Shown here one piece after another: positions 34,189 through 40,370 of a stretch of 64,000 nt of DNA. The notes under the pieces were generated by a model. The model had not been told where the DNA came from. It searched no databases and saw only the letters and a program-made list of their open reading frames with translations. Positions within the stretch are counted from its first letter, which is position 1; each line of letters begins with the position of its first letter. The stretch covers positions 124,001 through 188,000 of the forward strand of contig NZ_MBTF01000003.1 of assembly GCF_002013915.1 (NCBI RefSeq), read 5' to 3'. A program made the position numbers and the translations under genes. This DNA comes from Mucilaginibacter pedocola (GTDB lineage Bacteria > Bacteroidota > Bacteroidia > Sphingobacteriales > Sphingobacteriaceae).

Positions 34189-34401
34189 TTACCAGCCAGA
34201 ACCTTTTTTAGCTGCGCCAGAAGCAATGTGGCCTTCTGCTGTAGCTTTGCCCATTATAGCGGCCATTTTGTTTCCGTCAGCATCGGTACCTGTGGCAATA
34301 TAGCGGCCAGATTTTACATCGATAACCGGGTTGATCATTGGAACATTTTTGGTTTTGGTTTTTACTGAATAGGCGGTAATGCCTGCTGCTTGTGCTGCCA
34401 T
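34189..34401 (-). CDS. Small hypothetical protein (70 aa)
   Basis: Not recognised. The sequence MAAQAAGITAYSVKTKTKN is followed by VPMINPVIDVKSGRYIATG and a glycine/alanine-rich tail ending SGAAKKGSGW. No signal peptide or membrane segment. It has a plausible ATG, a terminator downstream and codon use like its neighbours. It is likely a real small soluble protein of unknown role. Confidence 0.6.
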   Translation of the reverse strand: MAAQAAGITAYSVKTKTKNVPMINPVIDVKSGRYIATGTDADGNKMAAIMGKATAEGHIASGAAKKGSGW

Positions 34402-35827: not shown

Positions 35828-36019
35828 TTAGTCTGCCTGTCCAATGTCTTTTTTAGTGTCTGCTTGTCCGATATCTTTTTTGGTGTCTGCCTGGCCGATA
35901 TCTTTTTTGGTTGCCGGTTTGGTGGTAGTGGTATCGCGTTTTACGGGAGTTGCTGCGGTGAATGCTGATACTACGCCGGTAGTTAATATAAGGGCTGCTG
36001 CTACAATTGCTTTTTTCAT
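35828..36019 (-). CDS. Secreted KDIGQAD triple-repeat peptide, array copy A (63 aa)
   Basis: Last of six tandem paralogues in the direction of transcription. Signal peptide MKKAIVAAALILTTGVVSA is predicted to be cut before FTAATPVKRD. A Thr/Lys linker follows, and then three perfect copies of TKKDIGQAD end exactly at the stop codon. The three units use different synonymous codons (for example GAC/GAT for Asp, ATT/ATC for Ile, GGA/GGC for Gly) yet give identical residues. The mature product of about 44 residues should be soluble and exported. Function is unknown, and a peptide-precursor role is inference only. Confidence 0.8.
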   Translation of the reverse strand: MKKAIVAAALILTTGVVSAFTAATPVKRDTTTTKPATKKDIGQADTKKDIGQADTKKDIGQAD

Positions 36020-36094
36020 GGTGTTGAGGGTGTTATTCTATTTGTTTAGGGGTGATGTATGTTCTGTGCTTTGTTTTATATGCTGAAGGCTTAA

Positions 36095-36286
36095 TTAGTC
36101 TGCCTGGCCGATATCTTTTTTAGTGTCTGCTTGACCGATGTCTTTTTTGGTATCAGCCTGGCCAATATCTTTTTTGGTAGCCGGTTTGGTGGTAGTGGTA
36201 TCGCGTTTTACAGGAGTTGCTGCGGTGAATGCTGAAACTGCGCCTGTGGTTAATATAAGGGCTGCTGCTATAATTGCTTTTTTCAT
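36095..36286 (-). CDS. Secreted KDIGQAD triple-repeat peptide, array copy B (63 aa)
   Basis: Same architecture as copy A. The signal peptide differs at two positions (MKKAIIAAALILTTGAVSA), and the C-terminal 27 residues are again three exact TKKDIGQAD units. The stop is shared in context: ATGCTGAAGGCTTAATTAGT precedes the stop in both A and B, showing they arose by one duplication including 3' flank. The start-to-start distance to copy A is 267 bp. Confidence 0.8.
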   Translation of the reverse strand: MKKAIIAAALILTTGAVSAFTAATPVKRDTTTTKPATKKDIGQADTKKDIGQADTKKDIGQAD

Positions 36287-36359
36287 GGTCTTGAGGGTTA
36301 TTTTGAGTTTGTAAGGGTTTGTTGTTTACTGTGCTTTTGTTTTATGATAGAGGGCTTAA

Positions 36360-36551
36360 TTAGTCTGCTTGGCCTATATCTTTTTTGGTATCTGCTTGGC
36401 CAATGTCTTTTTTAGTATCTGCCTGGCCGATATCTTTTTTGGTTGCCGGTTTAGTGGTGGTGGTATCGCGTTTTGCGGGAGTTGCTATGGTGAATGCAGA
36501 TACTACGCCGGTAGTTAATATTAAGGCTGCTGCTACGATTGCTTTTTTCAT
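36360..36551 (-). CDS. Secreted KDIGQAD triple-repeat peptide, array copy C (63 aa)
   Basis: Linker variant FTIATPAKRD. Signal peptide and the three TKKDIGQAD units are otherwise as in copy A. Copies C, D, E and F repeat at an exact 246-bp period including nearly identical intergenic DNA (ATGATGCTTATGGTGTTGTT just outside the start). C is therefore one end of a recently amplified block. Confidence 0.8.
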   Translation of the reverse strand: MKKAIVAAALILTTGVVSAFTIATPAKRDTTTTKPATKKDIGQADTKKDIGQADTKKDIGQAD

Positions 36552-36605
36552 GATGCTTATGGTGTTGTTGGTATTATTAAAATTGATGATTGTGTTGATG
36601 TTTAA

Positions 36606-36797
36606 TTAGTCTGCCTGGCCGATGTCTTTTTTAGTATCTGCTTGGCCAATGTCTTTTTTGGTATCAGCCTGGCCGATATCTTTTTTGGTAGCCGGTTTAG
36701 TAGTAGTGGTATCGCGTTTTACAGGAGTTGCTATAGTGAATGCAGATACTACGCCTGTGGTTAATATAAGGGCTGCTGCTACAATTGCTTTTTTCAT
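36606..36797 (-). CDS. Secreted KDIGQAD triple-repeat peptide, array copy D (63 aa)
   Basis: Linker variant FTIATPVKRD, 246 bp from copies C and E. The triple TKKDIGQAD tail is unchanged. Comparing the DNA of C, D and E shows mostly third-codon-position substitutions in the tail and small indels in the intergenic DNA. Confidence 0.8.
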   Translation of the reverse strand: MKKAIVAAALILTTGVVSAFTIATPVKRDTTTTKPATKKDIGQADTKKDIGQADTKKDIGQAD

Positions 36798-36851
36798 GAT
36801 GCTTATGGTGTTGTTGGTGTTTTTAAAAATGATGATTGTGTTGATGTTTAA

Positions 36852-37043
36852 TTAGTCTGCTTGGCCTATATCTTTTTTGGTGTCAGCTTGGCCAATGTCT
36901 TTTTTAGTATCAGCCTGGCCGATATCTTTTTTGGTAGCCGGTTTAGTAGTAGTAGTATCGCGTTTTGCGGGAGTTGCTATAGTGAATGCAGATACTACGC
37001 CTGTGGTTAAAATTAAGGCTGCTGCTACAATTGCTTTTTTCAT
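36852..37043 (-). CDS. Secreted KDIGQAD triple-repeat peptide, array copy E (63 aa)
   Basis: Linker variant FTIATPAKRD, as in copy C, with the same signal peptide and tail. It is 246 bp from copies D and F. Its near identity to C suggests conversion or recent unequal crossing-over among the tandem copies. Confidence 0.8.
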   Translation of the reverse strand: MKKAIVAAALILTTGVVSAFTIATPAKRDTTTTKPATKKDIGQADTKKDIGQADTKKDIGQAD

Positions 37044-37097
37044 GATGCTTATGGTGTTGTTGGTGTTTTAAAAATTGATGATTGTGTTGATGTTTAA

Positions 37098-37295
37098 TTA
37101 GTCTGCCTGGCCGATATCTTTTTTAGTGTCAGCTTGGCCGATGTCTTTTTTGGTATCAGCCTGGCCAATATCTTTTTTGGTTGCCGGTTTAGTGGTAGTG
37201 GTATCGCGTTTTACAGGAGTTGGTGTTTTTACAGTGAATGCTGATACTACACCGGTGGTTACTATAAGGGCTGCTGCTACAAATGCTTTTTTCAT
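37098..37295 (-). CDS. Secreted KDIGQAD triple-repeat peptide, array copy F (65 aa)
   Basis: First of the six triple-repeat genes in the transcription direction and the most divergent in its leader. The signal is MKKAFVAAALIVTTGVVSA and the linker FTVKTPTPVKRD is two residues longer. The tail is again three exact TKKDIGQAD units. Upstream are the two related small lipoprotein genes. Confidence 0.8.
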   Translation of the reverse strand: MKKAFVAAALIVTTGVVSAFTVKTPTPVKRDTTTTKPATKKDIGQADTKKDIGQADTKKDIGQAD

Positions 37296-37358
37296 GATGA
37301 GGGAATTTTTATATTGTGTTTGTTTTATGCTTTAAAATTTATTGTGTTTGCTGTAAGC

Positions 37359-37502
37359 TTAATCGGCTGTGCCAATGTCTTTAATGTATGGCGCGGTGTT
37401 GTGCTCAATAACAATGGCAGTAGGTTTTACAACTTCGTTTTTACGGCACGATAGCGCCATGCCTGTGCTAATTACTATTGCTGCTATGACGATCTTTTTC
37501 AT
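37359..37502 (-). CDS. Small lipoprotein with C-terminal KDIGTAD (47 aa)
   Basis: A short gene that reads MKKIVIAAIVISTGMALSC, a signal with lipobox-like ALSC (Cys19). A polar segment with VVKPTAIVIEH follows, and the C-terminus is YIKDIGTAD. The last seven residues match the KDIGQAD unit of the adjacent six genes except for Thr in place of Gln, and the stop follows the same Asp. It is on the same strand, 63 bp upstream of copy F. The shared tail argues that it belongs to the same system. Its individual role is unknown. Confidence 0.75.
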   Translation of the reverse strand: MKKIVIAAIVISTGMALSCRKNEVVKPTAIVIEHNTAPYIKDIGTAD

Positions 37503-37538
37503 GTATGTACGCTGATAGGTTAGTATAATAATTTGAAA

Positions 37539-37679
37539 TTAGTCTGCTGTTGCTATGTCCTTACGGATGCCTACCGTTGGCTTCAGTATCACATCAATGG
37601 CCTTGGTTGTGGTGGTCTTGACGCAAGAACTGATGATGCCCGTTAACAGGATAAGTAAGGCAAGGCAAACTTTTTTCAT
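37539..37679 (-). CDS. Small lipoprotein with C-terminal KDIATAD (46 aa)
   Basis: The first gene of the cluster in the transcription direction. It reads MKKVCLALLILLTGIISSC with a lipobox-like ISSC (Cys19), then VKTTTTKAIDVILKPTVG, and ends RKDIATAD. The tail is a variant of KDIGQAD (Ala for Gly, Thr for Gln). The gap to the KDIGTAD gene is 36 bp. Like its neighbour it is too short for most gene callers, so homologues may be unannotated. Confidence 0.73.
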   Translation of the reverse strand: MKKVCLALLILLTGIISSCVKTTTTKAIDVILKPTVGIRKDIATAD

Positions 37680-38012
37680 TGTATTGTTTATTAGTTTAAA
37701 ACTTTATTTTATTTAACTATGCTGCAAACGCCTTTTGCAGCCATTTTTGCTTTTGGCCACAGGCTTATAGCCTGTAGTTTTTAACTTCAGTTGCTTAATT
37801 ATTCAACTTTTTGGGCAATATGAAATCGCAACAAATAGTTTATAACGTATTGTTAGTCAATTAATTAAGCGATTCAAATATATAGATGTTTTTTAATTAT
37901 CAGGAAACTTTTTCCATATTTTTTTTAGTATTTTTTTCTAAATTTAGTACAATAGCTATTAGTAACTAATTATTTTATAACTTTCGGCGCATTTACACGT
38001 ATATATCCCCCG
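37680..38012. other. Divergent control region between the peptide array and the TPR-kinase gene
   Basis: No gene is seen. Two perfect hairpins lie near the array side: 37721-37741 (GCTGCAAA / TTTGCAGC) and 37759-37775 (ACAGGCT / AGCCTGT). The rest is AT-rich. A TATATTTG box for the array is at 37882-37875 on the minus strand. A TAACTTTC (one mismatch to the -7 consensus) at about 37977 could serve the kinase gene on the plus strand. Confidence 0.55.
37875..37882 (-). promoter_or_regulatory. Predicted -7 box for the small-peptide array
   Basis: TATATTTG on the minus strand matches TAnnTTTG. Transcription would start near 37869 and give a 190-nt leader carrying two hairpins before the first lipoprotein gene. 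The -33 region is weak. Confidence 0.45.
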
Positions 38013-39452
38013 ATGAACAAGATTTATGCCCTGGCTCTACTATTGATATGGTGCTGTTTGGTAACTGCTGTGCCCGCCCACGCAGCCATAAGCGCACGCG
38101 ATACTGCCGAGGTTATAAAACTAAACAAACAAGCCTACGATAACCGCTACACCAGCCCCGAGCAAACCGTTGAGGTTGCCGAAAAAGCCCTTGCCCTTGC
38201 TACCGAGCTTAACTACACCCGCGGCGTTGGCGAAGCTTACCGTGTAATGGGTATTGGTAATTATTACCTTAACCAGGCCGGCAAAGCCATTGATAATTAC
38301 CTTAAAGCCCGCGATGTTTTCCAGTCTATAAACGATCTGCGCAGCCAGGCCAAAGTGCTTAACAACATTGGCAACCTTTATCTCGATAACAATAAGGACA
38401 AAGCGCTGGAGTACCTCAATCTTGCGTTAGATATTGTCCAAAAACTAAAAGACGAAGACCTGAAAGCCTCGCTTTACATGAACATTGGCAACGTTTACTA
38501 TCGTAACAAGAGTTATAACCAGGCATTAAGCTTTTACGATAAAAGCAACGTAATGTTTGCAAAAAACGGCGATTCGATAAATTTAGTTCAGGTGCTGCAA
38601 AACAGGGGAGTAATTTACTATAACCTGCACGAGTATGATAAGGCCGAAAGCCTGTTACTTGCGGCCAATAAGGCCGGTAAAGAGCAGGACCTTAACAAGC
38701 CCGTAGCCAGTACCAACCTCACGCTGGCTTCGCTGTACATTGCCCAGGGTAAGTTTGAAGCAGCCGGCAGCGTAGTTACCGAAGGGCAGGCTTACGCCAA
38801 GGTTTTAAAAGACGAAAAACTGATAAACGATTATAACTATATAAGCTATCAGCTGGAGCTAAAGCAACGCCATTACGAAAAAGCGCTTGGTTACCTGCAA
38901 ACCATATTTAAGCAGGATAGCCTTATACACAGCTCTAACGAAAGCACGCAGATAACCATGCTGCAAGAGCAGTATAAACAAGCTGCTACACAGCGCGAGA
39001 AAGATGCCATTATTTTACGCCAGCAAAACGACAGGATAAAGTTTTGGGCTGTAACCGCCGTGGCGGGCCTGCTATTGGTGGTAATAGGCTTGCTTTATAC
39101 CAACGTAAAACGCAAGGCCAAAACCAACCTGCAGCTTACCGAGCTTAACGGTGAGGTACTGAAGCAAAAAGACAACCTCGACCGCGTGAACCATCACCTG
39201 GAGGAGATCATTGACGAGCGTACCAAAGACCTGCAATTTAAGAACAAGAAATTATCTGAGTATTCATCTTACCTATCGCACCAGATACGCGGGCCTATAG
39301 CTACGCTGCGCGGGCTGATGAACCTTGAAAAAGAAGGGCTGGTTGATGAGAAAGAATGCATCCGTATGATGGATAAATGCGTTTTCGATATCGACCAAAA
39401 GATCATCGAAATGAGCGAGATGCTTAACGATAACGGCAAAACCGTTTTTTAG
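38013..39452 (+). CDS. Exported TPR protein with membrane segment and HisKA-type domain lacking an ATPase domain
   Basis: A 479-residue protein with signal peptide MNKIYALALLLIWCC to about residue 25, an all-helical tetratricopeptide region at about 45-330 (units such as AEVLNNIGNLYLDN-like AKVLNNIGNLYL), a membrane segment at 344-365 and a coiled coil. A dimerisation/phosphoacceptor domain follows, with His423 in YLSHQIRGPIATLRGL. The protein ends about 55 residues after this His, with no HATPase_c N, G1 or G2 motifs. It cannot autophosphorylate alone. It may be a phospho-relay partner or a decoy. Topology places the TPR region outside the cytoplasm, facing the exported peptides of the divergent array. 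Confidence 0.8.
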   Translation: MNKIYALALLLIWCCLVTAVPAHAAISARDTAEVIKLNKQAYDNRYTSPEQTVEVAEKALALATELNYTRGVGEAYRVMGIGNYYLNQAGKAIDNYLKARDVFQSINDLRSQAKVLNNIGNLYLDNNKDKALEYLNLALDIVQKLKDEDLKASLYMNIGNVYYRNKSYNQALSFYDKSNVMFAKNGDSINLVQVLQNRGVIYYNLHEYDKAESLLLAANKAGKEQDLNKPVASTNLTLASLYIAQGKFEAAGSVVTEGQAYAKVLKDEKLINDYNYISYQLELKQRHYEKALGYLQTIFKQDSLIHSSNESTQITMLQEQYKQAATQREKDAIILRQQNDRIKFWAVTAVAGLLLVVIGLLYTNVKRKAKTNLQLTELNGEVLKQKDNLDRVNHHLEEIIDERTKDLQFKNKKLSEYSSYLSHQIRGPIATLRGLMNLEKEGLVDEKECIRMMDKCVFDIDQKIIEMSEMLNDNGKTVF

Positions 39453-39976: not shown

Positions 39977-40342
39977 TTACGAGTTATTTTTATTCAGCAG
40001 TTCTTCGTACAGCAGTATTACTTTGCGCTGCAGCCCGGTGATCTCGTTCTCGCGGTCGGTTAGTTTTTTCTGGAGTATATTAAGGCTCGCGTCCTGAACG
40101 CTTGGCTCTTCCACATATTCCAACGAAAGCAGGTTCACTACGCTCACTTCAAAAATGTTTGCAATTTGTTCAAGTCTTGATAAATTGATGTCGGTTACAC
40201 CGGTCTCAATTTTAGAAAACGCAGGGATCGAAATGCCCAGGCGGCTTGCAACATCTTCCTGGCTCCAGCCACGTTCGTGGCGTAAAGTGCGGATGTTCTT
40301 ACCTGCAGACTTGTTCGTTTTCTTCTTTATAGTCTCGCTCAT
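39977..40342 (-). CDS. XRE-family HTH transcriptional regulator
   Basis: A 121-residue DNA-binding protein. The helix-turn-helix domain (about 15-75) reads NIRTLRHERGWSQEDVASRLG then ISIPAFSKIETGVTDINLSRLEQIANIF, a classical Cro/C1 fold. The C-terminal 45 residues form a coiled coil that probably dimerises. The start is ATG 40342 or 40345 (MSETIKKK). A 16-bp dyad lies 29 bp upstream. Its targets are unknown. Proximity to the peptide array and TPR-kinase gene is suggestive only. Confidence 0.88.
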   Translation of the reverse strand: MSETIKKKTNKSAGKNIRTLRHERGWSQEDVASRLGISIPAFSKIETGVTDINLSRLEQIANIFEVSVVNLLSLEYVEEPSVQDASLNILQKKLTDRENEITGLQRKVILLYEELLNKNNS

Positions 40343-40370
40343 CATGTACATAAAAAATTAATTAAGAGAA

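Follow-up and report, generated by a model that had tools for sequence, protein, structure and literature searches.

A tandem array of small exported-type proteins and a divergent membrane TPR protein as a candidate extracytoplasmic peptide signalling pair in Sphingobacteriaceae

A tandem array of genes for tiny exported-type proteins with a common C-terminal motif and the divergently oriented gene F0, which codes for a receptor candidate with TPRs and a membrane helix, are in all likelihood a functional pair. We think it probable from their sequences that the array and F0 constitute an extracytoplasmic peptide-receptor signalling pair that resembles the RRNPP systems in its working and is not a member of them. 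The pair is carried by a family of soil bacteria, the Sphingobacteriaceae, and it may be an undescribed peptide signalling system. The following features are in the window, by which we mean the whole stretch of 64,000 nucleotides of Mucilaginibacter pedocola that was analysed; the host genome is 7.0 Mb.

37875..37898, minus strand: predicted array promoter, the element AATTAAAAAACAT with the -7 box TATATTTG
37680..37874, minus strand: array leader, about 195 nt, downstream of the -7 box and ahead of peptide gene 1
37539..37679, minus strand: peptide gene 1, 46 aa, lipoprotein-like, C-terminus KDIATAD
37359..37502, minus strand: peptide gene 2, 47 aa, lipoprotein-like, C-terminus KDIGTAD
37098..37295, minus strand: peptide gene 3, 65 aa, three TKKDIGQAD units
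36852..37043, minus strand: peptide gene 4, 63 aa, three TKKDIGQAD units
36606..36797, minus strand: peptide gene 5, 63 aa, three TKKDIGQAD units
36360..36551, minus strand: peptide gene 6, 63 aa, three TKKDIGQAD units
36095..36286, minus strand: peptide gene 7, 63 aa, three TKKDIGQAD units
35828..36019, minus strand: peptide gene 8, 63 aa, three TKKDIGQAD units
38013..39452, plus strand: F0, receptor candidate, 479 aa, with a predicted signal peptide, TPRs at 28-290, a membrane helix at about 344-361 and HisKA at about 411-471

The ORF coordinates, lengths and C-termini confirmed what an earlier note on this DNA had claimed, namely, that eight tiny exported-type ORFs are clustered at 35828-37679 and that all of them stop right at a shared motif, KDI[GA][QT]AD. 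Export was called by a hydropathy rule and inspection by eye, and a lipobox-like Cys is present in the 47-aa and the 46-aa ORFs. That the cluster holds 18 units with the same residues and varied codons was also found to be correct: the 18 TKKDIGQAD units of the window occur in 14 DNA versions, and the seven variable nucleotides are all at third codon positions and cause no amino acid change. The remark that no named family has this layout holds for Pfam and NCBIfam at their cut-offs, the array ORFs having given no match near or above them. Of the three roles that had been offered, a multi-copy secreted peptide precursor appears from the sequences to be the best, but the divergent TPR membrane protein, F0, had been missed.

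The possibility that the tail is private to this strain was looked into and was not borne out. A protein query with the peptide gave matches in 64 of 149 Mucilaginibacter genomes (E <=0.01), which is an undercount because loci chosen by F0 show variant tails, and exported-type ORFs, in most loci with at least one that ends in Asp, were found beside F0 in 11 genera. A strict test for the tail and stop codon was done with a 24-nt DNA pattern, K-D-[ILVM]-[GA]-x-A-D-TAA. This genome gave eight matches, every one inside the cluster, and among 399 Sphingobacteriaceae genomes the pattern was found in 20 Mucilaginibacter genomes (4-10 matches each) and once in one other genome. The reversed pattern, used as a control on the 399 genomes, gave one match in each of two genomes. 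The matches in a Mucilaginibacter genome formed one cluster or, in three genomes, were divided over contig ends. Three genomes have arrays that are cut in this way (L078/L079, L082/L083 and L105/L106) and several arrays terminate at contig ends; copy numbers from draft assemblies may therefore be too low.

Many Mucilaginibacter arrays contain several classes of ORFs, that is, short single-tail proteins, often lipoprotein-like, and multi-unit proteins. A frequent last class, with a KSDIATAD-like C-terminus, is absent from the array in the window. Inside one array the single-tail proteins can deviate from the repeat units, as they do in the window (KDIATAD and KDIGTAD against KDIGQAD). The commonest unit per genome occurred in 18 versions among 37 genomes, including KKDVGTAD (nine genomes), KKDIGQAD (five), KKDIGTAD (five) and KKDVSSAD (three). 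Across F0 loci the copy number ranged from 1 to 12 ORFs per locus, and the largest unit count was 21, in one ORF of 331 aa. The Asp-ending motifs in the loci chosen by F0 are genus-specific, mostly [A/W/G/Y]D. In genera other than Mucilaginibacter the ORFs are mostly lipoprotein-like, with tails such as KKDMGGWD, QKDNGNWD, KRDLGSYD, KRDLGTGD, KKDTTQWD, KGNLGTWD and KKDMSGWD. The multi-unit ORFs of Mucilaginibacter are, in our view, an amplified form of those in the other genera.

The earlier idea that selection acts on the peptide was supported by the third-position variation in the window and by a comparison of units from 37 genomes. Within genomes pS was 0.65 and pN was 0.013, and between genomes pS was 0.77 and pN was 0.195, so that differences at amino acid sites were 15-fold lower within genomes than between them; the units had been selected for partial similarity to the commonest one, and this makes the pN values somewhat too low, and the pairs are not independent. 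With a wider definition of the unit, pN/pS was 0.044 in 42 loci. These sequence comparisons support strong purifying selection on the motif. Recent copying of the units is disfavoured because silent sites also differ within a genome. Since the units are uniform within species and different between species, they are most simply explained by a single partner that every unit of a cell has to fit and that has a species-specific preference. In 77 loci, distances between tails followed those between receptors no more closely over the TPR part of F0 (partial correlation 0.30) than over its cytoplasmic part (0.32), and because this covariation is inseparable from shared ancestry it is not counted as support.

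The first set of loci, consisting of 36 fetched regions and the window, had F0 beside the array in 33 of 37 cases, and the remaining four were contig-end pieces. This set was biased because it had been picked by array matches and, therefore, a second set was picked by F0 alone. F0 was found in 82 of 181 Sphingobacteriaceae genomes and in 11 of 25 genera; 29 of the matches were in Mucilaginibacter, and no Mucilaginibacter genome was among the F0 misses listed. Across the phylum, five of 296 genomes had F0 at E <=1e-45 and all five were Sphingobacteriaceae. The F0-chosen set comprised 54 neighbourhoods from 11 genera. Two of them, L146 and L156, were left out because their contigs end 258 and 568 bp upstream, and exported-type ORFs were beside F0 in all 52 evaluable loci. 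In 51 of these the ORFs were found by script, upstream and divergent, and in the 52nd (L183) a repeat ORF runs off the contig. At least one Asp-ending ORF was present in 43 of the 51 script-scored loci.

In the full set of 87 F0 loci, 84 had exported-type ORFs and 76 of these 84 had at least one that ends in Asp. There were 402 exported-type ORFs, a count that includes some spurious ORFs and some broken by runs of N, and 322 of them end in D; on the opposite strand of the same stretches there were 71 such ORFs and only one ends in D. All but 11 of the 402 ORFs (391) are at most 100 aa long, the longest being 331 aa. The gap between F0 and the array is 333 bp in the window, at most 400 bp in 67 of 84 loci and 663 bp at the maximum. 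The eight loci without any D-ending ORF are of different kinds. In L181 and L182 many units are followed by a few other residues, L167, L168 and L169 have the C-termini YEE, GGWGG and YGE, and L174, L175 and L176 have extra residues beyond a GD- or AD-type stretch. Of the 80 ORFs with another last residue, 51 carry the core motif within their last 14 residues. A free terminal Asp is, therefore, not universal in the precursors.

Absence of F0 was used for the converse comparison. F10, an M20 peptidase, flanks the array in 27 of 50 Mucilaginibacter loci and in 32 of 37 other F0 loci, and it is present in 16 of 17 genomes without F0, these 16 spanning 11 genera. Neither F0 nor a D-ending exported ORF was found beside F10 in these 16 genomes; three short ORFs there fit a loose pattern and none of them ends in D. 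The UvrD helicase flanks F0 in 47 of 50 Mucilaginibacter loci and in 33 of 37 other loci. In five of the 16 F0-lacking genomes UvrD is one of the two genes closest to F10 on its upstream side, yet it is on the other strand, which is not so in the Mucilaginibacter loci and means that the site is also rearranged there. Paralogous TPR kinases with an ATPase-type C-terminus had no such peptides upstream (none of 11), and one D-ending ORF near them overlaps a 260-aa gene on the opposite strand and by eye has no N-terminal hydrophobic stretch. Among 297 other gene starts with divergent room, seven have a D-ending exported-type ORF; six of these are in F0 loci that the filter had let through, with tails of the types given above or similar ones, and one (L083) is unrelated.

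Other neighbours were considered and dropped. F10 was rejected as a processing enzyme because of its presence in the F0-lacking genomes and because it is located elsewhere in this genome. The XRE-type regulator F2 (39977-40351), which is convergent with F0 and has 11 matches in this genome, was rejected as a core part since a homologue is in 48 of 50 Mucilaginibacter F0 loci and in none of the 37 loci from other genera. Only part of the genus has the neighbours F5 and F13, which were likewise rejected as core parts. No modifying enzyme, transporter or response regulator adjoining the array or F0 was found among the recurrent neighbour families.

The -7 box motif used here is of the Bacteroidota type. 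A -7 box facing the array was found in 59 of 84 intergenic regions against 15 expected from mononucleotide shuffles, and a -7 box with a -33 TTG in 33 of 84 against 1.8 expected. Facing F0, the full promoter form was found once and the -7 box in 19 of 84. Counted only at a distance of 40 bases or more from F0, the -7 box is present in 48 of 49 Mucilaginibacter loci and in 11 of 35 other loci, and AAAACAT is present shortly ahead of it in 34 of the 49 and in none of the 35. Only one of 318 gaps inside the arrays has a -7 box and, therefore, the array is probably one operon read from the one predicted promoter. The promoter element occurs once in this genome, and no further site of the element with its box was found there with up to two mismatches. 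The length of the leader is nearly constant in relatives (nine of 22 leaders are 193 nt), and in this strain the leader folds better than shuffled sequences (z -2.8). RNAalifold gave no consensus structure for the 22 leaders and Rfam gave no match.

F0 has homologues of 477-499 aa (33 homologues), and by hydropathy 80 of 81 F0 proteins have an N-terminal hydrophobic stretch and a membrane helix beyond the TPRs. Nine F0 proteins were scanned, eight of them as the matched stretch only. TPR_12 and HisKA were matched in all nine, HisKA being above the Pfam cut-off in one, and HATPase_c was matched in none. Residues R45, E74, R77, N117, N118, N157 and the cytoplasmic H423 are conserved in at least 95% of 81 homologues and N197 in at least 90%. 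In an AlphaFold2 model made from four sequences, six helix pairs and then a long helix form a TPR solenoid that is predicted with confidence, and the model ends in a helical hairpin; pLDDT is mostly 84-96 over residues 28-290 and weak elsewhere. The best structural match to the modelled TPR domain is LGN (Z 25.4). The RRNPP receptors Rap and NprR, with and without pheromone, match with Z 19.5-21.5, KLC1 with C-terminal peptides with Z 20.7-20.8, and APPBP2 with a degron with Z 20.3-20.9. Since MalT (Z 20.2), PilF (19.6) and APC/C subunits (about 19) score like the RRNPP receptors, the likeness shows suitability for peptide binding and not function. The model thus suggests that the fold is a generic TPR fold and that the domain is suited to bind peptides. 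By sequence, RapJ is a weak match (E 6.7e-4).

The array and F0 are reminiscent of the RRNPP(A) systems, such as Rap-Phr, NprR-NprX, PlcR-PapR and AimR, in having a small propeptide that is conserved near its C-terminus and can contain repeats, an adjacent TPR gene and a similar TPR fold. In one account the RRNPP signature is given as a Sec-secreted propeptide of 10-100 aa next to a TPR receptor of 250-500 aa at a distance of -60 to 400 bp, the conserved part of the propeptide being near its C-terminus and the receptor intracellular, and the systems are described there for Bacillota (PMC10075063). Repeats of the pheromone inside RRNPP propeptides are put at one to four copies in another (PMC11343458). 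The array and F0 agree with the signature in propeptide length, receptor length, TPRs of the peptide-binding type and adjacency, and by the hydropathy rule the N-termini of the array ORFs are signal-peptide-like. They differ in the location of the receptor. With a signal peptide and a membrane helix, the TPRs of F0 should face outward, unlike those of RRNPP receptors, which are intracellular and bind a re-imported peptide, and for this reason we do not file the array and F0 as an RRNPP member. Further differences are the HisKA stub, the divergent orientation of the genes, the copy numbers, which reach 21 units in an ORF and 12 ORFs at a locus, and the occurrence in Bacteroidota.

The NCBIfam families FimS and BT3442, which are Bacteroidota TPR histidine kinases, have a weak full-length likeness to F0 and the same architecture of signal peptide, TPRs, membrane helix and kinase-type domain. 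F0 is, however, far below their cut-offs (53.8 against 600 bits and 63.4 against 940 bits) and has no ATPase match; compared with a sensor histidine kinase, it shows the conserved H423 and a HisKA match that is above the Pfam cut-off in one of nine proteins, and it shows no HATPase_c match. KLC1, which binds JIP1 or torsinA tails, and APPBP2, which binds the RxxGP degron, have a fold like that of the F0 model, and a similar grip of F0 on a free C-terminus is hypothetical. Both are eukaryotic intracellular proteins, and a clamp like theirs would be hypothetical in F0. The TPR domain of HOP reads the EEVD C-terminus. In receptors of the ComD/AgrC/ComP type the sensor is a transmembrane bundle. 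Two-component peptide quorum sensing of that type is similar to the proposed pair in having a membrane receptor with histidine-kinase machinery and a peptide ligand, and in one account of it the signals of Gram-negative bacteria are given as small molecules (PMC8895600). F0 differs from that type in its TPR sensor, in having no ATPase domain and in having no adjacent response regulator among the recurrent neighbours.

We propose the following mechanism. One predicted promoter would serve the array of small exported-type precursors, which would cross the inner membrane by Sec, some of them as lipoproteins. The conserved Asp would be the last residue of a short peptide, here approximately KKDIGQAD, that is then exposed or cut out, so that each cell would have many identical ligands. 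The most economical link between the two partners is that the tail binds the TPR domain of F0 directly, and we consider this fairly probable. In the TPR groove, the conserved Asn ladder (N118, N157 and N197) would hold the backbone of the ligand, and R45 or R77 perhaps its carboxylate. As its sequence suggests, F0 would consist of an outward-facing TPR domain, a membrane anchor and a cytoplasmic HisKA stub, and binding would alter the stub. Since the stub is without an ATPase, it must depend for its action on another protein, either a kinase or a response regulator. Such a circuit would report the density of the peptide around or inside the envelope, and the signal may go from cell to cell instead of staying inside a single cell. 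Our tentative proposal is that this is a new peptide language of Bacteroidota, in which a lineage-specific code word is read outside the cytoplasm by a membrane TPR receptor that signals through a catalytically empty stub. The C-terminal code word would be roughly [KR]-x-[DN]-[ILVM]-[GS]-[TQSN]-[AWGY]-D, each lineage having its own word that is kept uniform by the receptor, and it would be written in arrays that have about a dozen genes at most, with as many as 21 units in some of these genes.

F0 could also sense the tail without any signal passing between cells. The small proteins would then be bulk components of the envelope and F0 would tune their production. Of the 322 D-ending ORFs, 119 have a lipobox-like Cys, and among the 59 D-ending ORFs that are first in their array the number is 41. 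Such a Cys would keep many of the precursors membrane-bound; the divergent arrangement with a single promoter is also in keeping with this explanation. We nevertheless regard it as unlikely because homeostasis alone does not explain the tandem units or the change of the code between species. The motif is C-terminal in 322 of 402 ORFs, and one of the structures that the model resembles is APPBP2, a TPR protein that reads C-terminal degrons. Both would be expected if the tail were a sorting or proteolysis tag that leads to a protease or an export machine, with F0 as a regulator or cargo receptor. Many internal tandem copies would be needless in a tag, and a tag should be far more constant than the between-species pN of 0.195 allows, which makes this explanation quite improbable.

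It is also quite improbable, and slightly more so, that the peptides are antibacterial or modified (RiPP-like) products under the control of F0. They are small, of exported type, multi-copy and fast-changing between species as such products would be, but no modifying enzyme or transporter is recurrent beside the array, the tails are short and charged and do not look membrane-active, and no Pfam or NCBIfam match was above cut-off. Finally, a neutral or selfish expansion of small repeat ORFs beside F0 could account for the variable copy number and for the several arrays at contig ends. With pN/pS at about 0.02-0.04, silent sites near saturation and a constant partner gene, we find such an expansion hardly credible. 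The peptide-receptor signalling pair is, thus, the reading that we prefer.

The open-access literature (without preprints) was searched for the array peptides and the array-F0 pair, and no paper on either was recognised among the top matches; five tail strings gave none. If the proposal is true, an outward-facing peptide-TPR pair in eleven Sphingobacteriaceae genera would extend peptide signalling to a large phylum of Gram-negative bacteria, and dozens of naturally occurring ligand-receptor pairs would become available. Since the units are uniform within and different between species, specificity would be testable with short synthetic peptides.

A few observations on individual loci may be added. 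In the window, a 70-aa ORF on the minus strand at 34189-34401, which contains ITAYSVKTKTKNVPM, has close matches among small ORFs in the array loci L091, L093, L094 and L100. In L159, L161 and L163, which belong to one genus, a gene of about 320 aa is beside the peptide gene on the opposite strand, and in L159 a second peptide (..GDKRPTGTYD) is upstream of a neighbouring gene. L149, L150, L189, L190 and L192 are likewise from a single genus; inside their first ORF a Cys-rich motif ([RQ]?GCG.WD or like) precedes a tail of other residues, and the second ORF has KRLA[SN]WD at its stop.
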